Shown: positions 1,158 to 55,585 of the stretch, piece by piece | How the letters are laid out: each line of letters opens with the position of its first letter | How positions within the stretch are numbered: the first letter of the stretch is position 1 | Assembly: GCF_964355755.1 (NCBI RefSeq) | Contig: NC_092677.1 | Span: 6,205,001 to 6,269,000 of the forward strand | DNA: 64,000 nucleotides | Direction: 5' to 3' | Origin: Antedon mediterranea | Taxonomy: Eukaryota; Echinodermata; Crinoidea; Comatulida; Antedonidae | Translations under genes and position numbers: made by a program | Notes under the pieces: generated by a model | What the model was told of the DNA's origin: nothing | The model's input: only the letters and a program-made list of their open reading frames with translations | Database searches by the model: none

Positions 1158-1189
1158 CTGAGACAACAATCAAAGAGATTGGAAACGCT
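1158..1189 (+). repeat. left terminal inverted repeat of P-like transposon
   Basis: 32 bp, exactly the reverse complement of 6688-6719. It starts CTGAGACAAC and ends GGAAACGCT. The flanking target copy GTTTATA lies at 1151-1157. A weaker inverted match (TTCCCTTTG) continues inward to about 1204. Confidence 0.95.
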
Positions 1190-1325
1190 AGCGATTTCCC
1201 TTTGTGTGGCACTTGCCGCCAGGTTCAGTGTAGTATACCTCTTTGTTATGCAAATTAGCTAAGTCACCGGCCAATCAGCGAATTCGCGCAAGCGCAGATT
1301 AACTGTTTATCAAAATCAGTGATCC

Positions 1326-2855
1326 ATGAAAAAAGTTTTTGGAGGGGTTTTTAAATCTCACGAGCAGGAGATAAACAACGAAATATACGGTAAGACTATA
1401 GGTGTTTATAAACATTATTTATGTTGTTTAAAAATGTTAAATTAGGTATTAATTTTTTTCTGTAAAAATGATTATTAACACCAGAGTACAACACTACAAG
1501 AATTAATTGGAAAAAAAAAAAGATTTCTTTGGGATAATTATCAAATATTAGCCTACATATAATAGGCCTACAGCAGTAGCCTAGTAGGCCTATTCATTTA
1601 GCCAGCCCAGCATATTTATTATTAATTATTTTATTAGGCCCCTATTATAGGCCTAGGCTAATTATTAATAAATACTAGGCCAAGGCCCTAGCCTATAGGT
1701 GTAGTAGTATAGTAGGCCTAGAGGTTAGGTTCAATAAGGCATTCATTCATTCTTAAGTGTATGCCTATAATTATTAGGCTATGTCACATAATGTTAATAA
1801 TTTTAAATCAGGGTAAATTAAAGAGCAATATACGATATAAATAAATGAGAAAGCTCGTCAATTAGGTTTTTTTTTTTTCAGTTATGGCAACAAAATCAAC
1901 AGCCTGTAGGCCTAGTCCTTTACCACTTACCACTGCCAAGGAAATTAATGAAGATTTGCCACACATGGTGACAGATGCACTGAACATATTAGTAACCGAT
2001 GACATTCACCATGCATCATGGTCCAAGTGTGGTTCAGGTGTGATCTCAATTGCAAAATCAATATTAGAGAATCAATCTGAAATAAATATGTTTTTATCGG
2101 AAGAGATTATGGATAGTCTGCTGCAGCCCACAGCTGCAGATATCCTAAAAGCTGTTTTCCAGCTGAGGATAAACAGAAAGTTTATTCATGATTTTTTGAA
2201 TAAGATAATTACTAATATTAATAATACAGAAACTGAAAAGGAGGCTTTTGTTCAAAGATTTTTGACCTGCATAACTACATCATTTTTTAAACGACAAAAT
2301 GAAAAAATTGAAGTAAGATATAATATGGAAATAGAGTTAGTAACTACAGCAGACAAGCAAATCATCCATCATATTACAGGTTCTATTATAAGAAAATTGA
2401 AAAAAAGGTACATGAACAAGCCAGTTGAAAGAGAGATGCTTAGCAATCTGACCACTGATAATGGTGTAGACAGTAGATGTTCATGGACACAAAGTTTGGA
2501 CAGAGGCGGTTTGATTTACCCCTCAACAAAATTTCTTAATTTAATTATTTTAATTGAGCGTTGGATTAGGGAGTTAATAAACAGTGAAAGTTTACAACAT
2601 GATTCTTTAATTAACATAAAGTCTACAATACTAAAGTATAAACTGGTAACACATATATGGAGTAACCTTATAACCTCACCAAATACACAGAAATGGATAG
2701 TGTTGGACAATGTTGTTGAGTTATTTTTAAAAATTAGAGGGTTTGCTTTAACTGAACAACTTAAAAGCAAAATGCAAAAAAAACAAAAGCAACAAAAACT
2801 TGCTGCCGGAACTAAAAAAGCATTAAGAAAAGAACTAAAAGAATTAAACAAGTAA
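1326..2855 (+). CDS. transposon accessory protein with P/THAP9 C-terminal-like domain (two exons)
   Basis: Exon 1 is 1326-1389 (ATG AAA AAA GTT...; donor GTAAGACT at 1390) and exon 2 is 1882-2855 (acceptor T-run plus CAG at 1879-1881). The junction makes a Val codon and keeps frame, adding 22 residues (MKKVFGGVFKSHEQ...) before the ATG at 1884; total about 345 residues. The protein is mostly helical and ends in a Lys/Gln-rich basic tail. Its second half carries a tract like IIRKLKKRY, then CSWTQSLDRGGLIYPS followed by a hydrophobic helix. In P/THAP9-type transposases, as I know them, a similar 'RKL...DRGGLxYPS' region follows the catalytic core in the same polypeptide; here it is a separate gene on the opposite strand. 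Role inferred: a transposase partner or split-off C-terminal domain. No catalytic motif was seen. Confidence 0.75.
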
Positions 2856-2881
2856 AATGAAAAATAAGCTATATGCTGTAA

Positions 2882-2922
2882 TTTATTAACTGGAGTACTG
2901 TAAATGTTTTGTGCAAAATAAA
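2882..2922. terminator. overlapping convergent polyadenylation signals
   Basis: AATAAA on plus at 2917-2922 lies 62 bases after the accessory-gene stop. TTTATT at 2882-2887 reads AATAAA on minus, 67 bases past the transposase stop. The two transcripts therefore probably overlap tail-to-tail, which could generate antisense 3' ends. Confidence 0.6.
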
Positions 2923-2954
2923 AAAAAAGTCAAATTTACTATTATAAAATGCTA

Positions 2955-5592
2955 TTAAGACTTTTTTACTCTGCGTTTAAGTGGAATGTTTAAATTTTCT
3001 TTGTCCAATTCAGACATAATTCGCTTAGTGTTGCCTCTTATGGGTGCAACTGCTGCTGACCCAACAACCCTAAGTGTATTTAATGTATGTCGAACATTAT
3101 CAATTGTTGGATTGTCACCTGCTCCCTGTTTGTGTCTATAATGTCCAAAGTGCTGTTCGAGTACATCTTGATTAAACACACACGTATTTACAAATTTGGC
3201 TCCTTTTCCCAACAAATAACGAACACATGCTACAATAGAATTAATGGTGATATGAAAGCCATGTATGGTTTGCTGACTTAGTAACATACGCTTTCTTTCT
3301 GCATCAGCAAATTTTCCTACTCGTTCTTTTACATCATTTTCCCATTGCTCAAGGTATCCTAAAAACTCTGTCTCTAAATATGAAAGTCTTGGATCATGGA
3401 TGTCTTTGTATGGATTTAAGTCTGTGTTTCTGGATAACTTACCAGCGTTATTGTTTCTTGTATTTAAGCAATCAAAAAAGCGATTCATGTGAGTTATGAA
3501 GGTGATTGTTTCTCTTGCACTGTCACCATATACTTCTTTCATGTGCTGTGCAACTCTGTTACTGAAAACTTGAGCAGCTAAATTGACTTTCATCACACTG
3601 AAAGGGGTGAGGTCAATATGTGCTCTTGTTAGTTTTGTTTTTTTATACAATTTTCCTTCTGTGTGTTCTTCAAACAGTTGAACTAAACTCATCCATGAAA
3701 TGTTCTGTCCACCTTTCCACAGATTTCTTGATTTTTTGTGACTACCAGAATTTGAAAAACAATTTCTAGCTGTTTTTAGCAGATGAGGGACATCTGAAAT
3801 AAAATATAGATTCCGATTTGGAGCAAAAGGATTTGTACAACTAAACTTGTTTTTAAGCCCATGAGAATCAAAAAATGATCTATTCTGGCTAGCACCATCA
3901 CATGTAAGATACAAAACTTTCAGTCCAACATCTATTTCAAGTAGTTCAATGGCTCTCCATAAAATTGTGTGGAGATCTTCAGAACGTAGTCCATTTGTTG
4001 CAAAAACTGCCAATGGAAATTTTAAGTTACTTGTTGCCCCTCGTACCATAATAACTAATGCACTTTTTGCCATCTCATTGGTGATTTCATTTTTCTTATT
4101 TTCAATTTTGTGAATCTCATTGCTTATGTTATCTAAATTTGTAAATCCAATCAATTCATTAGTGGAGGCAGAATATACCAAGTCTTCTTTTATTTTAATT
4201 TCATCCTGTAAAATTCCAACATATGATCGCCATTCTTCAGTAAAGAGTCCTTTTCTTTTAGCCTCCTCGTGTAGCATTTCTAAAACTTCTTTCTGGTAAC
4301 CTAATTTACTATCAATGACGTGGCTATAATCATATAATGTTCTTTCACTTGGTAAACTTATAAAACCAGTTTCTCTCAGTGCTTGATATGCAGTTGAAGA
4401 TTTAGATTTCAAGTACAAAGCCCATTTCACAATAATAGGATGCCACCTCATCTGTCTTTTCTCTTTTAACTTGTTGAATTTTAATTGTTCTTCCCAAAAT
4501 ATTCTTTGAAATGAATCAGGATCTCGAAACAAATTGTTGAAAGCATTTTCTCCTTCTTGAATAATAGTTTCTAGGTCACCATTAGAATCATCTGTCAGTT
4601 CATTGTTCTTATATTTTTGATTAATTTCCTGATTAATTAATATTTGCTTTTTTTTTCTTTCAACACTTTGACATTGTTTTTTTAGCATCTTACTTTTAAT
4701 TAATAAATCATTTTTAGTCAAACTGGTATTAGGCCTTTTAGATGACAATAATACTTCAAATGACTGATTGTGTTTCATAGATTTTCGCAATGATCGTCTG
4801 TATGTTGCACAATGGGGGCACCTGTTTGTTAAAGTAGTTAAAAGGAAGCAGCGATCAGTTCGGATTGTTTGTGTGTATTCTGCTCCACAGTCATGTTCCA
4901 CATACTTGTTTTCCTGCAATGCAGTTAAGTCAGGATTTCCTATGCACACAGTATATTTATCAAACAAGAATTTTAAAAACATGAATAAATGATTAAACAC
5001 ATGCACCTTCCGTATACTTTCAAATATTGTATGATTATCAGGTAAGCGCTTGTTATGAACGATTACGGTTATATTCAAGTTTTTGTCAATAGTAACTGCC
5101 ATCTTAACAGAAAAAAAACGTTTCTCATAGAACTGAATGAGTGTCAGATCACTAGTTGCCTTAATGACTTCAAAACCAATGTTATTCAGCTTTTCTTGTT
5201 TCCTTGTGCAATCAAATCGCAACTGCTGGTATGTCACATAATTGATGTTATCTTCTGTCTCAAGTTTTGTCAATGAAGATCCAAGTACTAAATAACTCTC
5301 AATTGGTTCCTTATGTTCCTGCAATACACACAGAAACACTCATTTATAACCACACTATAATGATTAAATACTTTATACAATCTTTTTACACAACCTATGT
5401 ACTTACTTCAAGCAGTGGTTCATTGTGTACACTATGAACAACACAATCACAATTTGCAAAATTTCCAGTGAAGTCACAATGCTTAACTTGCTCAATTGGC
5501 TGACGAGTGAGTGGTTTTCGTTGAGATGGAAGACCATTAACACAATATTTGTATCGTCTACCAATTAATGCTTTTCTTTTTTTTCTTGTCAT
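2955..5592 (-). CDS. P-superfamily-like transposase (two exons)
   Basis: Exon 1 is 5592-5407 (62 codons, donor GTAAGT) and exon 2 is 5318-2955 (acceptor TATTGCAG). The 88-bp intron is phase 0, giving about 849 residues. The N-terminus is basic (MTRKKRK) with clustered Cys/His (C39, C48, C50, H53, H56), possibly zinc-binding, but no canonical THAP pattern is seen. A second Cys cluster reads NRCPHCATYRRSLRK. The core matches the P/THAP9 order: W-H-P-I-I then LPSERTL; an Asp in LQDEIKIKEDL (near residue 433); Asp in LTCDGASQNR; the DVPHLLKTARN block; KLTRAHIDLTPFSVMKVNLA; and, near the C-terminus, NQDVLEQHFGHYR, where the third acidic residue (Glu) is expected. The fold assignment is family knowledge; activity is inferred from the intact frame. 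An acceptor-like ACAG just before the ATG suggests a further 5' non-coding exon. Confidence 0.85.
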
Positions 5593-6687
5593 GATCTGTT
5601 ATAAATAAAAGAAAACATTGATCATTGGTTTGCACTGGTTTCTGTACATGCATTTCAGGCACTTACTTCTAGGCAAGAAACACTAAAGCCCCACTAAGCA
5701 ATATAATAATCCCCCTCACCCTCACCCCCCTCACCCTCACTTCCCCAACCAATTTTGTTTGACCCCACCCAACTACCATTCCATACTACTGCACACCAAA
5801 TAGAGCAGTAAAAACAAGTTTGGAAATAGGATCAATTTGATTTGACAAGGTAAAAGCTAGCCTAGCCTAGACTTAATTTAGGCGAAATTACGCTAATGAA
5901 TGCATATGAATCCCTGTGACTAGCCCTGGCTAAATAAGGCCATGCGATGACATTGGGCCTACTCTAAGGAAAATATATTGAATAAATACAAATTTCAAAT
6001 GATTAAAAAATACACGCATACCAACATTTATATATTTAACTATCATTAAAAGGTAAGTAAGTGATACAATATCATAAATAAGATAAAGATTTTTTTGTTC
6101 CAAATGTGACACAATTACGATTGTGTATTTAGCGTATTTAGCGAAAACTTTAAAAAACCAGTAAAATCATCATACTTAATTACATATTAAACATTACTTT
6201 TTCCTAATAAATTGTACATCATACCACAGAAAAATAGTTATTCTATCATAATAAAACTCATTAATTACACAAGAGTGTCTTTTAGTAAAATTGCAATGCT
6301 CTCAAAAACTGGTGTTTTAAGTAGCCGTTCCGACAACGACACACTAACCCAGTCTAGATGGGGTAGTCCATCTACGGTTGTCTACGAGTCTAGAACTACC
6401 CTACTTTGCAGACCAAGTTCTACTAAAACAAGATTAATTTTTCTTTTAAAAAACAGTTAAATACCAAACATTATTTAAAACTCTTACCTTTTAATATCCT
6501 AAAAATATAATTTGAAGTTCAAATTAAGCGTAATTTGCTGAAGGAAATCTGGTAAACTGTTACTGTCTCGTATATTGCGAAGCGATCGCGTGCGATCTCC
6601 GTCGAGTGGATTTTTCTCGAGCGCACACTTAATTTACATAACAATGAAACTACTAAGACGAAATAAGTAGATCAAAGGGAACCGACA

Positions 6688-6719
6688 AGCGTTTCCAATC
6701 TCTTTGATTGTTGTCTCAG
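6688..6719 (-). repeat. right terminal inverted repeat of P-like transposon
   Basis: Perfect 32-bp reverse complement of 1158-1189, ending TTGTTGTCTCAG. The target copy GTTTATA follows at 6720-6726. Confidence 0.95.
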
Positions 6720-6978
6720 GTTTATACAAATTTTATTCTAAATGTTTTTTATACAATCAGTGACCTAGGCCTACTACCCTAGGCCTAGATAGTGATTAAG
6801 TTCGCTTTTTAGGAATCCTGTCTCTGCCTGGTTTTGTGTGATGTTTTCTTGTTATTTGTCCATGTTTTTTTTATTGTATAAATTTATGAGAGAAAATAAA
6901 TGAAATGAAATGAAAAAAAGCCACAGTTAACACCGGTCTCCAACTTCACAGACATCACACCGCGCCGCTCCGCGCCGG

Positions 6979-6987
6979 TATAAAAAG
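6979..6987 (+). promoter_or_regulatory. putative TATA box of the OSGIN-like gene
   Basis: TATAAAAAG sits in a short GC-rich island (CGCGCCGCTCCGCGCCGG just upstream). A plausible non-coding first exon would run from about 7010 to 7402, where GTAAGATT forms a donor, and would splice to the acceptor at 9351-9352 (TCATCGACAG) before the coding ATG at 9372. No transcript evidence is available. The P-like transposon ends about 260 bp upstream. Confidence 0.45.
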
Positions 6988-8077
6988 CAGGTCGAGAGGG
7001 CGACAAACAACATTAACGTGTCATTTTTTTATGATGAGATGAGATGATCTGATCATCATTGGATCTCTCTGATCCTCTCTGATCACCACGCGTTCGTCGT
7101 GTGTCTCTCTTTCCATCCAACAGGCCTAGGGATACGGTACCACCACACCTTTCTCGGCATCGTAGGTTATTTCTTCTACCCATCATCCCCATCCATGCAA
7201 AATGTGAGTCGATTGGAAGGAAGGAGAAGAAAGGCTACTGTCTGTCGTTTATTGTTTTAATGTTGGTCACTGATTACTTTTAATTTGGATTTTTGTATCG
7301 TGTAGCAGCAGCACACAGTCACAGACAGTCAGTAGGCTACTACTACTACTAGCCTAGTAGTGCTAGCTGGCCTGCTGAGAGACTCGGACTGAGTTGAGGA
7401 GGGTAAGATTTTACTTTTCGTCAACGCATAGCTAGGCCTACCACCGACTCTAGTAGTAGGCCTAGGCTTAGTAGTAGTAGTAGGCTAGCTAGGACTAGTA
7501 CTCTAGGCCTAGCTAGGCCTAGCCTAGTAGTAGTAGGCTAGGTCTGTATGTATGTATGTAAAACATCACAGAGGGATTTTGTTACCTCTCTCTAGCTAGG
7601 TAGGCCCATGATGGCCTAACTAAATAAACCTGAAGGAATTCATTCATCTGAATGAGTCCGTCACTTCAATCCATCAATAATCATAATGCCAATATGGTAG
7701 GCCTATATTGTACCTAGGCCCGCCTTTCTATTATAATAGCCTAATTATTGAGAGTGAGACGTATAATAATAAAAATAACTAAAATCATAATCATGACCGC
7801 CGGCGTTGATTAAAATCTAAATATATGGCAAAAATGTATCCGATGTCAAACGCAACTGAGGATATGATAAACCGATGTAGGCCGTAGTGGCGCCTTATTA
7901 TTATACAATTAAAATATACTGGATGTTGATTTTATTGCGACCAATTTCAACTTTCACCGAATTACTGCATTGCACTCCAATGAACCACAGTGAACCCATT
8001 GCTTTATTTACCATCGTCTTTTCTCACTAATTTCCTAGAGCGACACATTTCCACTTTTAATAATTTACTGTAGTGTA

Positions 8078-8256
8078 CAGGGAAAAATTTCATTTAAAAA
8101 TTTTGTTTAGCAAAATTGCTAATCAAACTGATTGTTGAGTCGAGAAAGAGAAAGAGTTTTGTATTGCATTTTTTGCTACACAATTTGCGAAATGTGTAGC
8201 AATAAGGTTGTTTTGTATAGCTTTTTGCTATGCTACACTGGCGAAATTATTCCCTG
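8078..8256 (+). mobile_element. MITE with CAGGGAA termini and 5-bp target duplication (copy 1)
   Basis: Starts CAGGGAAAAATTTC and ends CGAAATTATTCCCTG. It is flanked by GTGTA at 8073-8077 and 8257-8261. A reverse-oriented relative occupies 32446-32620. It has no coding capacity and lies in the 5' intron of the OSGIN-like gene. Confidence 0.75.
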
Positions 8257-9371
8257 GTGTATTAACTGTACAGTCCAACCCAATGAACCGAACTGCAATG
8301 AACCACACTTTGTAGTAGGCCTTTGATATTAAAATCTACAATTCTCTAGTGTGAAATAAATAATCATAATACTATAGATATACAATGTACATTTAATCAC
8401 TTTTTTATACATTATGATTTGTTATAATAATTCTCAAAAGAAAATCTCAGAATTTATAATGTACAGTATTAATTTGAAAAATGAAAAAAATAATGTTTAT
8501 TTGAATTTAAGTGTAAAAATCGTATTTTAATTGTTTGTATGCTCCAGGGAAGAACAACCATATATTTTGATCTGGGTCTCTGTGGTTAAATAAAGTTAAA
8601 TTGAATTGGTTCTCAAAAAAATTTCTTTGTTTTTTACGAAATTTTATATTATAGTTTCAGTTTTCCATTGTTTTGTATAGTATATTTTAAGTTTTTTTTT
8701 ACATTTTTGTAATTGTATGGACGCACCACCATTTATGCATTGTGTGTTACTGTTATTTGTGAAAAAAGTTGATCACCCATGATAATTTATATAGATTCAA
8801 ATCCACCCTCAAATTTTTACAATTGAGATTGCACAACACACTTGTAAAAATACATAAATTGAGTAGTATCCTCAATAACCAACTGTACTTTTAATAGAAT
8901 TTGTTCTAGAAATTCTTTTTAATATATTTATTCTAGAAAAATGTAATTGATATACTGTGTGCTTGATTTTTATAGTGTATGTTTGTTAATATTTTGATTG
9001 AATATAAAATGCTGAGTCATTTTCAGCAAACCAATCAATACACACTTCTGCTTAATCAGACTATGAATATTCATTATTACCAGCTTGCCAGCCAATGAAT
9101 TAGTTCAATCTAGTTGATTATGAATTATTTAGAATTCTTTGTTTATCAACAGCCAATAAGGTGGCAGGGATTTAATCTGTCATGAATATTCATCATTGGT
9201 TTATGACATGTTTTTTGGTATCTGGACATATGAGGCTTAAGTGGGTAGTTAGACCTACAGTACCTAGTCCAGAGTGCTGAACATCACACTTCTTTTTGTC
9301 TGATCAATCAGTCATCTATTGGACCATACATTAATACCTTTATCATCGACAGGCCTAGAAGCTGTCGAGGA

Positions 9372-15300: not shown

Positions 15301-16629
15301 CAAAGCTTAAAAAACAGTTCATAGGCTTAAAGTTCACCTAAATTATGCTACAGTACATTCACCCAGAGGGCAATTTCTTAAATTATTTTTTAGAATTTAG
15401 TTCAATTAACTCCCATGCTTAAATTCCATTACCTATACACATGAACCATGTTTCTAATGCATTATGGGAGTATGTTTTCATACGTGTTTGACTTGAATGG
15501 GGTAATAATGTTCAGCGCTGAGAGGTTTCACAACATTAGGCGCTATAAATCCAGGATCTTATTATTATAGTATTTTGCATCTTTAATCTTGTCTATCAAC
15601 AGATTAGGACAGGGAGATAATTCAGGCCAAACTGATAATGGAAACCGTGCAAAGGTGACAGAGGTCGCCCAGTACTATAAAGATTATGTGCAACATATGG
15701 GTCTTGGTGAGAACTTTTACTCAAACGTGACAGTGACATCAGTAAAAAAGCTGACAGGAATGCGTGTAATTAACTCGGAGAATGGAGAACCTGAAATCGC
15801 ATGCCAACGCTGTCGTCGACTTGAAGGAGAAAACATGTTTGAGGTGAAAGGACTTGCGCGACATAATGACATGGGTACTGAAGAACCTTTTTGTATTTTT
15901 ACACCAAATGTTGTGATTGCTACCGGAACTAGTGATTACCCAAACAGACTCAATGTACCAGGAGAGAATTTAAATTATGTTTCTCATAATTTAAAGAAAT
16001 TGGAAGAAACTATAATGAGCGAAGAAATATGTGCAAGTTCGGATCCGGTGTTAATAGTCGGAGCCGGACTTAGTGCAGCTGACGCAATAATATTTGCACA
16101 GAATAACAATATTCCAGTTACGCATGCATTCAGGCGCAAGTCGAATAACAAAGGTCAACCATTACGAAATCTACCAAAACTTTTGTATCCGGAGTACAAT
16201 AAAATCTACACTATGATGAATAGTGGGCCAGAATCTAATACTAATTATCTGAATCTACCACAACATACTATAGTGGAATTCAGACCAGATCGAACTGTAG
16301 TATTACAAGATTCAAATGGGAATCAAACTTCTGTAAAAGTATCTCATGCATGTGTTCTTATTGGTTCAAAACCAAAGTTAGACTTTTTACCAAATTATGG
16401 CAAGTCGTATAGTTTACATAAGAATATGCTAGTTAGTTGTAAGAATAATCCGTTGGACGTTGATCCGTACACAATGGAAAGCAATGTGGAACCAAGTCTT
16501 TATGCAATTGGTCCATTAGTTGGAGACAACTTCGTTCGATTTCTTCAAGGAGGTGCGCTGGCTGTAGCATCAAATTTAATCCAGAAGAAAATTCCAACAC
16601 CACCGCCTTCTCCATTCAGAGGGCAATAA
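9372..16629 (+). CDS. OSGIN: OSGIN-type FAD-dependent monooxygenase-like protein (oxidative stress-induced growth inhibitor), five coding exons
   Basis: Coding exons 9372-9456, 10957-11090, 11556-11747, 15137-15225 and 15603-16629 join in frame to 508 residues, close to vertebrate OSGIN1/OSGIN2 length. The dinucleotide-binding loop GNGPSG (residues 29-34) spans the first intron, followed by ICLSYFLSGNWPYY, a hallmark of OSGIN proteins. A second Rossmann signature, VGAGLSAADA, lies about 150 residues into the last exon. SIPGGAW-type and ATGTSDYPNRL segments also fit flavin-dependent monooxygenases. OSGIN proteins are stress-responsive (NRF2/p53 targets in mammals) and restrain growth; whether this protein is enzymatically active is not visible here. 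The ATG at 9372 is chosen as the first Met after an acceptor, but the frame is open back to 9353. The sequence does not decide between OSGIN1 and OSGIN2 orthology. Confidence 0.9.
10312..10651. mobile_element. TTAA-flanked MITE in OSGIN intron
   Basis: Inverted ends TTAAAGATGTATTGTCCCC and GGGGACAATACATTATGATC...TTTAA, with TTAA at both termini (10312-10315, 10648-10651). Related terminal or internal pieces (GGCAGCCAA..., ACAATACATCTTTAA) recur near 36978-37375, 58731-58820 and 60306-60850. The TTAA target resembles piggyBac or Kolobok targets; no transposase is present. Confidence 0.6.
12351..12442. repeat. tandem duplication of a 46-bp unit
   Basis: Two near-identical head-to-tail copies starting TTGGACTAAACTCAAAGTGG at 12351 and 12397, in an OSGIN intron. 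Probably a recent slippage or unequal-exchange product. Confidence 0.85.
15450..15525 (+). mobile_element. SINE fragment (same family as 28696-28965)
   Basis: Shares GCATTATGGGAGTATGTTT, ATACGTGTTTGA and GGGGTAATAATG, in order, with the reverse complement of the SINE at 28696-28965. It lies in the last OSGIN intron. The head and tail are missing. Confidence 0.6.
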
Positions 16630-43773: not shown

Positions 43774-46700
43774 TTATGCCGGTGGCTTGTATGCAATTTT
43801 TCTTGTTTTCAGTACGGACCATCTCGACTTTTTCATGTAAAATGCACCTCCTATAAGTACGCTCATTATCATCAACATCTAAAATAATAATAATAATATT
43901 AAATACTACCATATTTGGGCACATCACATTTTTTTTTGTCAAATTGATCTTTTTAATTTTTTTTTCAATCTATGTTTTACACAAATTTCACTTCTCCCTT
44001 TTTCTATAAACAAACAGGATAAACCCAAGTATTGTTAAGTCTAGCCAGGATTTTTACAGGAAGTTTCTTTTTCCAAAAATAGGGAAAAAATGTCATGAGC
44101 TAGGCTGGGGATAGAAGCAATTAATCTACTACTATGCCTTGTATTAATTTGTATTCTCTTAATTTCATCTATAGTAACTTTAGTAATTTGATTTTTACCT
44201 TAATTCCCATCAATTTGCGTGTGTCATGTTCTGGTTCAGCGGCCCACCGTAGGAATGTGCAAACATCCTTGGCAAGTTGACTTAAGGTAGCTGGAGTACC
44301 TGAAATGAAATAGATAAAACATACCAATGTCAATAAAGGGGAAGGAGGAAAATTGCAAAAGGCTTCCTACTTTCTAGGAGTTTTATATGGTTAAGTTATC
44401 TGCTGAAAATTCTTTAAAGTCATTAATCAATCTTTAATTTTTAATATGGGACTGTTAAGTGTTAGGTAGGCCTACTAGGAATAGCAACCTTTTAGTGGTC
44501 TTAATAGACCATTAATAAAGATAGTTGACATTGGTTTAACAAATCTCAAATCCCTATCTAAACATGATAGATTAATGACTAGTGTTGATTTTGCTAATTT
44601 TCATTGTAAAGTTTAAGTCTGTTATTTTGGGTTGCGTGTGATTCAAGGAAACATGCTGTAGCGACATTAACACACAAATTGAATGTAATACAGGATGAGG
44701 TATTTGGAGAATGTCCTCAGGAAGTTCTCAAATGGACACAGCGGGCAACTAGTTGCAGGAAAAAACTATTTGAACAGACTTGGAGAAACGAAACCTAAAC
44801 AACAGTATTTTATACAGTATATTTTTGGCAGCAGAAAGAAAGCCTGTGAGCGGTTGCAATCTTGAATGTAATTAATACACTCTTACACCATATACACGAT
44901 TAAATATAAACGCACATACCATCTTCATATTCAATAATTTCATTATATAGTGCTGGAGCCATAGCTATAGCTTGTCCAGGGAAGTATGGGTGATAGTAAA
45001 GGCCTTCACGGACCTCAACACCTGCTGGGGGATCGCAGTATCCCGTCAGTATAGCATATAAGTAATCCTCACTGCCATGACGGGCAAGAGCTATGTAACT
45101 TAAATCCGGGGGTAAAGCACCTATGAAACAAAAGAGAATGGAAATTTATAGCTTTTTAAAATATTTGTTTACTTACAGTGAAAAATGTTAGAAACTGCCT
45201 TTATGGGAAGGTGTTGATGATGACTTATTCCATTCAACTAAATTCAGTTTAATTTTTTTTTAGTGTTTTTAGAATACTATCGAACCTTAAATAGGGGTAT
45301 CCTTATTCAGAGGACACCTCTATTAGGGGGACACAATGTCTAGCATAATTACAAAAAAATCCAAAACTTTATAAAAGGTTTTGAATAACTGAACTTTTTA
45401 GAAACCTAAAGATATTCATAGTCATGTACACACCACTGTTTGCTGCTCTAGCTTCTTCTTCATTCTTGTACGGATTTGGAAAGTAGTCGGAGAGCTTGCC
45501 AGGTCGTTCAAACATCTCCCCTGTATCATCTGGACCATCTTTGATCATATACTATAATAAAACATAGTTTAGAGCCCAGGATTTATCAGCCAACGTTTAT
45601 TTGAATTTAAATTTGAAGCTATTTTTCAAAAGAGCATACATACCTCTTCAGCAATTGTCTTAGCTTCTGCCTCTGTGTGTGATACTCCGATTAAATTACG
45701 GAAAGCTAAGAAATTCATGCTATGGCAGGCTGAACAAACGTCTTTGTATACCTGATAGCCTCGTCGTACACTGAGAAAAAAAGAAAACCATTGAAACACA
45801 TTCTATTTAAGTAGAATACAGTAAAACCTCGAAAAGCAGCCTTCCTCTTTGGTCTGCAAACGTAAGAAAAGAAGCTCTAAATCAAGCTCATTGGGCTTCA
45901 TTTCAAGAGAATATTGGTTTCTTTTCAAGAGAGTATGGGCTTCTTTTCAAGAGTATGGGCTTCTTTTCAAGAGAGTATGGGTTTCTTTTCAAAGAGTATG
46001 GGTTTCTTTTCAAGAGAGTATGGGCTTCTTTTCAAGAGAGTATGGGCTTCTTTTCAAGAAAATATGGGCTTTTTTTCAAGAGAATATGGGCTTCTTTTCA
46101 AGAGAGTATGGGCTTCTTTTCAAGAGAGTATGGGCTTCTTTTCAAGAGAATATGGGCTTCTTTTCAAGAGAGTATGGGCTTCTTTTCAAGAGAATATGGG
46201 CTTCTTTTCAAGAGAGTATGGGCTTCTTTTCAAGAGAGTATGGGCTTCTTTTCAAGAGAATATGGGCTTCTTTTAAAGAAAATATGGGCTTCTTTTCAAG
46301 AGAATATGGGCTTCTTTTCAAGAGAGTATGGGCTTCTTTTCAAGAGAGCATGGGCTTCTTTTGAAGAAAATATGGGCTTCTTTTCAAGAGAATATGGGCT
46401 TCTTTTCAAGAGAGTATGGGTTTCTTTTCAAGAGAGTATGGGGTTTTTTGTAGAGAGTATGGGCTTCTTTTCAAGAGAGTATGGGCTTCTTTTCAAGAGT
46501 ATGGGCTTCTTTTCAAGAGTATGGGCTTCTTTTCAAAAGAGTATGGGCTTCTTTTCAAGAGTATGGGCTTCTTTTCAAGAGTATGGCCTCTTTTCAAGAG
46601 AATATGGGCTTCTTTTTTAGACTATTTGAATATCAAAGGAACACAAGTGATTTAATGCCAGATAACTTGTGATGCAGATTTAATTTATTTGACAGTTTAA

Positions 46701-48312: not shown

Positions 48313-48727
48313 TCTATGCCTACTATGATTCCGGCAAATCCACTGTACATAGCCGTACCTGCCCTGACGTATGACAGATAAGACATTTATTATTTGTCAG
48401 CCGTCAGGGCAGGTTATTGTATGATTCCACTGTACATAGCCGTATACCAGCCCTGACGTATATGACAAATAAGATATTGATTATTTGTCATCCTTCAGGG
48501 CAGGTATTGTATGATTCCACTGTACATAGCCGTACACCTGCCCTGACGTATGACAAATAAGACATTTATTATTTGTCATCCTTCAGGGCAGGTATTTTAT
48601 TATTCCACTGTACATAGTCGTATACCTGCCCTGACGTATGACAAATAAGACATTTATTATTTGTCAGCCGTCAGGGCAGGTTATTGTATGATTCCACTGT
48701 ACATAGCCGTATACCAGCCCTGACGTA
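48313..48727. repeat. 88-bp dyad-containing satellite array, left segment
   Basis: About four copies of an 88-bp unit. Each has CCTGCCCTGACG, then ATGACAAATAAGACATTTAT and its inverse TTATTTGTCA, then CGTCAGGGCAGG, and a spacer GATTCCACTGTACATAGCCG. The array is cut by the Helitron after ...CCCTGACGTA and resumes at 54815 with TGACAAATAAG. Confidence 0.9.
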
Positions 48728-49838
48728 TCTATATTATAAGTGAGAGAGCTTGTCTGTTTGTTTGTTTGTCTGTTTGTTCGTTATACAAAATTTTGTTACT
48801 GCACGTAATCTTACATATGGGGTATCAAAATGACCACAATTGTACCGGGAATGTTCTAAGCTATATTTCAACATCATCCGCCACCTAGGATCCAAGTTAG
48901 GGAACAAAATGTGGTCAAAACCCCCACTTTCGATGTTTGTTCGTTATACAAATTTCTCTTTCTGCACGTAACCATACGTATGGGGTATCAAAATGATGGC
49001 AATTGTACCCGGAAGGTTTTAAACTACATTTAAAAAAATTCCCCCGACTCCTGGGGTTTTTGTGGGAGGGGTGGGTGGTGTGGTGGTTTGTGATGTCACA
49101 TTTTAGCTAGGGCTTGGGGTTGTAGGCTATCGAATCGTAAAATATATACTACAAAAGTTTTACAGTATTTGAATTATCCTCAGCAAGGCGTTTGGGGAAA
49201 TATAGATATAGATATACACATTTTATTCATTAACCAATATGACACCTATTCAATTACACATTTAGCAAAGTACTTTAACCATGTCCATGCTATGTATCGG
49301 TCTCTTGGATTGTCTCATTACAGACATCCATACCTGTGTGAACATACACATGTTGTTTACTGTTACTGTGTTCAACTACATCACCAATCCTCCAAGAAAA
49401 AAACGTCAATTGTGAGAGAGTGGGGTTGGGAGATAGGATTTGGGTTCAGGGGATAGTGGGGATTTTGCTTACACCAGAATTGTGGTTGGAAAATGTATTT
49501 AATCATCCCTGGGAAGCGGATGGGAGTTTGGAGTGGGGATGTAGGCCTATCACCATGACCGAAACTGTATTTGGAATGTTTTAAACTACATTTGAAAACT
49601 GCCACTGAGGGATTATGGGTTGGGAGTGATAATAACATAATTTGTACTGCAACCGGCTTCAACACATCACCCAGTGTATCTGGGGTGTGTTTGTAGGGGT
49701 AGGAGGAGCGAAAATACTAGCGTAATGAAGTAGCCTATTATTGGATTGTACTAGGAAAAGGTACTAAATTTGAACTGTCCAGGGGAGGAGTTAAGGTTTG
49801 TTGATGGTGGCTGGGGTGGTGAAAGGAGAGAGAGAGGG

Positions 49839-54814: not shown

Positions 54815-55585
54815 TGACAAATAAGATATTGATTATTTGTCATCCTTCAGGGCAGGTATTGTATGATTCCACTGTACATAGCCGTACACCTGCCCTGACG
54901 TATGACAAATAAGACATTTATTATTTGTCATCCTTCAGGGCAGGTATTTTATTATTCCACTGTACATAGTCGTATACCTGCCCTGACGTATGACAAATAA
55001 GACATTTATTATTTTTCAGCCGTCAGGGCAGGTTATTGTATGATTCCACTGTACATAGCCGTATACCAGCCCTGACGTATGACAAATAAGATATTGATTA
55101 TTTGTCATCCTTCAGGGCAGGTATTGTATGATTCCACTGTACATAGCCGTATACCTGCCCTGACGTATGACAAATAAGAAATTTATTATTTGTCAGCCGT
55201 CAGGGCAGGTATTGTATGATTCCACTGTACATAGCCGTATACCTGCCCTGACGTATGACAAATAAGACATTTATTATTTGTCAGCCTTCAGGGCAGGTAT
55301 TGTATGGTTCCACTGCACATAGCCGTATACCTGCCCTGACGTATTACAAATAAGACATTTATTATTTGTCAGCCTTCAGGGCAGGTATTGTATGGTTCCA
55401 CTGTACATAGCCGTATACCTGCCCTGACGTATTACAAATAAGACATTTATTATTTGTCATCCTTCAGGGCAGGTATTGTATGATTCCACTGTACATAGCC
55501 GTATACCTGCCCTGACGTATGACAAATAAGACATTTATTATTTGTCATCCTTCAGGGCAGGTATTTTATTATTCCACTGTATTAA
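54815..55585. repeat. 88-bp dyad-containing satellite array, right segment
   Basis: About nine units of the same repeat as 48313-48727, continuing in register from the Helitron insertion point. The first units here match those at 48466-48727 almost base for base, pointing to duplication or homogenisation within the array. The array ends at ATTCCACTGTATTAATTGAT. Confidence 0.9.

Follow-up and report, generated by a model that had tools for sequence, protein, structure and literature searches.

The stretch of DNA analysed here (hereafter the window) comprises 64,000 nucleotides of Antedon mediterranea (contig NC_092677.1 of assembly GCF_964355755.1, positions 6,205,001 to 6,269,000) and contains a complete transposon at window positions 1158-6719, in which two intact, convergent genes with predicted splicing lie within 32-bp terminal inverted repeats (TIRs). 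It raises the question of whether the transposase of a P-superfamily element can be divided between two genes. Published descriptions of P transposases, to our knowledge, present them as one polypeptide of six domains. The preferred reading, to which we assign a probability of roughly 75%, is that the element is an autonomous, recently active P-superfamily transposon with a transposase divided between its two genes.

The left TIR (1158-1189, plus strand) and the right TIR (6688-6719, minus strand) are identical over 32 bp, and the similarity of the two ends reaches 47 nt at 89%. A 7-bp target site duplication (TSD), GTTTATA, is present on both flanks (1151-1157 and 6720-6726). Two other full copies were found at C3:37947660-37953233 (TSD GCTAGCT, 7 bp) and C1:2820999-2826549 (TSD CGGACAC, 7 bp), which are 99.0% and 99.4% identical to the window element, respectively; because the same structure recurs there at such identities, its presence in the window is not due to chance. 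The three full copies show 21 substitutions in total. Both reading frames are open in the window and C1 copies, and the C3 copy carries a 1-bp frameshift within exon 1 of the transposase. A decayed copy (C1:26931458-26937380) still has both genes, now disrupted; a truncated copy on C4 retains one end and the plus-strand gene. The original prediction of perfect 32-bp TIRs, a target duplication, two intact spliced genes and overlapping tail-to-tail poly(A) signals (AATAAA at 2917 on the plus strand, 2887-2882 on the minus strand) thus describes the element correctly, the splicing being predicted from sequence. No relatives of the element were found in the viral contigs searched. TIR-like ends related to the window family occur singly at C1:9771668 (L047) and C7:8639549 (L048), with no transposase or plus-strand gene found within 9.5 kb of them.

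The minus-strand gene encodes a P-superfamily transposase. Its exon 1 (5407-5592) encodes 62 aa without a match to THAP or any other Pfam domain, and is separated by a predicted intron of 88 bp (5319-5406, GTAAGT..CAG) from exon 2 (2955-5318), the 787 aa of which contain an HTH-like region, a split RNase H domain and a GTP-binding insertion domain (GBD); the poly(A) signal lies at 2882-2887. The predicted spliced product (exons 5592-5407 and 5318-2955) has 849 aa and no stops. Pfam matches were obtained for TNP-like_RNaseH_N (3e-26) and the GBD (6e-18), the matches to RNaseH_C and HTH being sub-threshold, and the Drosophila P transposase structure (PDB 6p5a) was matched with E=1.4e-14. The catalytic residues are D372, D474 and E721, plus D509-x-x-H512 (exon-2 numbering), the first D having been assigned by reading the sequence (D372 in LQDEIKI). 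In the alignment to 6p5a, D303, E531 and D339-x-x-H342 are identical in the window transposase, as are all eight of the GTP contacts listed in PMC7776569 (D528, K385, K400, V401, S409, F443, D444 and N447). No Pfam match to a THAP domain was found in the predicted exon 1 or the N-terminus of exon 2, and a further upstream exon is possible. The protein extends only 66 aa beyond the catalytic E721, i.e., it stops soon after the last catalytic block, as had been claimed. The core features of the P superfamily are all found: a DDE RNase H with D(2)H, a GBD with the GTP contacts, and TIRs with a 7-bp TSD.

The plus-strand gene, here termed B, probably begins with a coding exon of 21 aa (1326-1389), which keeps the frame of exon 2 and is also present in the full C1 and C3 copies. 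A predicted intron with canonical sites (1390-1881, GTAAG..TTTTCAG) is followed by exon 2 (1882-2855), which contains a 323-aa open reading frame from the ATG at 1884 (1884-2855); with the 5' exon spliced in, the predicted protein has 345 aa. The poly(A) signal AATAAA (2917-2922) interlocks with that of the transposase, so that both 3' ends would overlap. Residues 153-323 (2340-2852) are the part homologous to the C-terminal domain (CTD) of P transposases, with the motifs ITGSIIRKL, RGGLIYPSTKF and KIRGFA and a basic tail, and are preceded by approximately 150 residues without assigned homology. The last 33 residues include 12 K/R versus 3 D/E, and a conserved basic tail terminates all four aligned B proteins.

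In the solved Drosophila structure the CTD touches both the transposon and the target DNA, and a disordered linker connects it to the catalytic part (PMC7776569); the 6p5a entry gives it as a chain of its own, chain B, with chain A extending to 569. A profile built from four B proteins was aligned with hhalign to chain B, represented by two HMMER-printed fragments joined by an X-filled gap, and yielded a probability of 88 and E=3e-6, with a score of 40.9 versus a maximum of 20.7 among 200 shuffles. Window B alone gave a weaker result (E=0.0018; 0 of 200 shuffles as high). When it was compared with the fused CTD of a THAP9-like element of the same genome (L037), one of 200 shuffles equalled the score. 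The L037 CTD, located on the transposase strand, in turn matches chain B (6p5a_B) at 0.0078 and, weakly, Pfam THAP9_C and Tnp_P_element_C, so that B is linked to the fly CTD both via L037 and by direct hhalign. The motifs can be paired as YIAGYVIKKL and GGLIKPSEKF in the fly versus HHITGSIIRKL and GGLIYPSTKF in window B. In the THAP9-like loci L036 and L031 the CTD motif is likewise on the transposase strand; the AGY/GGL motifs of THAP9-like elements are positioned downstream of the catalytic exons, which backs the equation of B with the CTD. Several searches were negative: B alone had no Pfam match, THAP9_C gave only two weak places across the genome (B not among them), and the B profile by itself did not match a P transposase in PDB. 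Single-sequence AlphaFold models were of low confidence (pLDDT 41 for B, 54 for its CTD part), and Foldseek with the model of the CTD part found no significant match. On profile evidence, B is homologous to the CTD that is absent from the window transposase, which bears out the original recognition of its DRGGLIYPS region as a transposase C-terminus.

The same homology bears on the idea that the transposon acquired B from its host as an unrelated gene. The missing Pfam match for B would fit such an origin, against which stand the hhalign result and the orientation of the B genes: 19 B loci were compared, and in all 11 with a detected transposase within 1.3 kb the two genes are convergent. With CTD homology and consistent convergence, host-gene capture was rejected as very improbable, and the protein does not fall into an unrelated host gene family. 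No neighbouring transposase was detected at the remaining 8 of the 19 loci, among which L066 is internally deleted and the C4 copy truncated.

At least four diverged families, all from this one genome, carry a transposase together with a convergent B (L053, L054/L055, L056 and L057), a recurrence that backs the proposed split. Their transposases are only 27-29% identical to exon 2 of the window element, and L053 is bounded by 32-bp TIRs of its own and a 7-bp TSD. No clearly mobile full copy lacking B was found; L058, a transposase locus at which no B was detected, is decayed. A PHD finger is encoded by an exon preceding B in L053 and L057, where it passes the Pfam cut-off, and in L054, where it falls short of it; no PHD-encoding frame was seen in the window copy. 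The N-termini of the relatives' transposases resemble zf-AD below the Pfam cut-off, and in L056 (C5:14659303-14659620) and L057 (C5:16166600-16166818) the RAG1 importin-binding domain PF12560 was found above the cut-off at the transposase N-terminus; the window family has neither a zf-AD-like nor a RAG1-type N-terminal domain. Inside the transposase gene region of L056, an open frame of 1330 aa (5251-9240) looks like an LTR retrotransposon polyprotein.

Empty-site footprints of the window family occur at 14 places in the genome, compared with 0 for a control pattern. They retain 10-17 nt per TIR and never 18, and a perfect 7-bp TSD flanks six of the seven examined; as three of these six are copies of one event, four are independent. 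Since the 5' cut of Drosophila P is made 17 bp into the TIR (PMC7776569), the ceiling of 17 nt supports excision of the two-gene element by a P-type staggered cut, as judged from the genome sequence alone, and indirectly provides the 17-nt staggered cut as a further feature of the superfamily. Together with the three near-identical copies bearing different TSDs, the footprints mark the element as evidently recently active. For the L053/L054 families, the pattern CATGGAGGTA..TACCTCCATG detected 491 footprint-like short palindromes genome-wide (control 0), which suggests very heavy past excision; one footprint of this type, located in L066, was checked and has the 7-bp TSD GTATTAA, the empty site being found in L054. 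An identical 32-bp palindrome-like unit, CTGAGACAATAACTATTTATTTGTTGTCTCAG, is repeated on many contigs and is probably an old footprint carried within another dispersed repeat.

The best reading of these data is a two-gene P lineage in which the CTD would work in trans and B is presumably required. The minus-strand gene would provide the catalytic domain (split RNase H), the GTP-binding insertion and a DNA-binding N-terminus. B would contribute the helical CTD as a protein of its own, extended on its N-terminal side. The catalytic subunit would pair the TIRs, cut both beyond the element and 17 nt within it, and join the 3' ends to target DNA at points 7 bp apart. B would dock in trans onto the RNase H and GTP-binding domains, and its basic tail may hold the transposon overhang and the target DNA as the linked CTD does in Drosophila. 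As the split falls at the disordered linker, it would be the least disruptive division of the protein, and the basic tail conserved in B is in keeping with a CTD supplied in trans. Where B of related families has a PHD finger, this finger probably anchors the complex on chromatin. With separately transcribed subunits, the expression of B could gate transposition. The original prediction had proposed either a divided transposase or an accessory factor; the identification of B as the CTD, encoded by a separate gene and recurring in four families, has held up, with a divided transposase the more probable of the two.

Accessory function is the core of a different explanation, in which B descended from a P-transposase CTD and is now a regulator (a repressor, a titrating partner or a chromatin-targeting factor), while the short transposase works alone. 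L066 (C1:3219801-3224300; intact TIRs, 7-bp TSD GTGAAAT) has lost most of its transposase and kept the PHD and B region, and a second B copy at C11:6725460 is deleted in the same way. Drosophila P has internally deleted copies that make repressors, and the transposase-less B copies recall these; the PHD fingers of the relatives also suggest chromatin binding. However, the window transposase is without a CTD exactly where the solved enzyme has one, the fly CTD touches transposon and target DNA (PMC7776569), and B has been retained in families with transposases as distant as 27-29% identity. We therefore consider a purely regulatory B unlikely. Regarding the direction of evolution, the two-gene layout may be ancestral, single-gene P and THAP9 forms having arisen via fusion of B to the transposase, which would be compatible with a transposase split between two genes. 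A branch with 100/100 support separates the two-gene from the fused elements in the catalytic-core tree, and divergence within the two-gene group is very high (window branch 1.1), as such an origin would suggest; the tree is unrooted and drawn from one genome and cannot give direction, and single-gene forms have been reported from insects, vertebrates and Ciona (PMC7776569). An ancestral two-gene state is thus offered as a tentative possibility.

The element shares with Drosophila P the DDE core, the GTP-binding insertion with all listed contacts, a similar TIR length, the CTD (as B) and a footprint ceiling equal to the 17-nt staggered cut, and differs from its one gene, THAP domain and fused CTD. 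THAP9, zebrafish Pdre2 and L031, L036 and L037 are alike in catalytic family and CTD motifs, whereas their CTD is on the transposase strand, a THAP N-terminus is reported for THAP9, and the THAP9-like elements are separated from the window transposase by the 100/100 branch. Galileo, a Drosophila member of the P superfamily, also has a TSD of 7 bp (PMC4168063), that of P being 8 bp (PMC7776569), but has very long TIRs, a single gene and a THAP domain. By the type of its catalytic core, the window element is best placed in the P superfamily and, with no THAP match and no fused CTD, outside the canonical single-gene P/THAP9 elements. The open-access full texts covered contained no description of a two-gene P element, in agreement with the earlier impression that the arrangement was undescribed.

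RAG-like transposons (ProtoRAG, RAG1L/RAG2L) also combine a transposase with a convergent second gene; the likeness goes further only in relatives, whose transposases or second genes can bear a RAG1-type N-terminal domain or a PHD finger, respectively, neither of which was seen in the window copy. The Transib-type core, 5-bp TSD and Kelch-type RAG2 of RAG-like transposons were not seen here, and the P-type core and 7-bp TSD place the window element outside their definition. Among transposons, the Chapa finger of the RAG1 N-terminus has been reported only from Chapaev and TransibSU (PMC4411706). N-RAG-TP of Aplysia was considered as an earlier example and set aside; according to a review it consists solely of RAG1 N-terminal-like sequence. 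PIF/Harbinger elements likewise encode two proteins (PMC2836001), but their transposase is unrelated and their second protein does not correspond to a transposase CTD; the window element has neither a Harbinger transposase nor a 3-bp TSD. A far-reaching scenario, which we regard as quite improbable, is an obligate hetero-oligomeric P transpososome that in most lineages would receive its CTD in trans from a PHD-bearing partner, with modules exchanged with the RAG lineage, so that the RAG1-RAG2 layout would have arisen twice or by module sharing. Relatives in which a convergent PHD gene accompanies a P core with a RAG1-type N-terminal domain are relevant to the assembly of RAG1-RAG2. With a natural split at the catalytic-CTD linker, the role of the CTD becomes testable by adding or omitting one protein, and the split offers a two-key transposon system.

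Elsewhere in the window, a 22-bp minisatellite of 33 copies (45892-46616) lies within an open frame of 269 aa (45811-46620). Two arrays (48339-48728 and 54815-55581) apparently consist of one 88-bp unit, which contains the palindrome TGACAAATAA..TTATTTGTCA. Positions 15571-16629 hold an exon of a gene for a pyridine nucleotide-disulphide oxidoreductase (PF13738).
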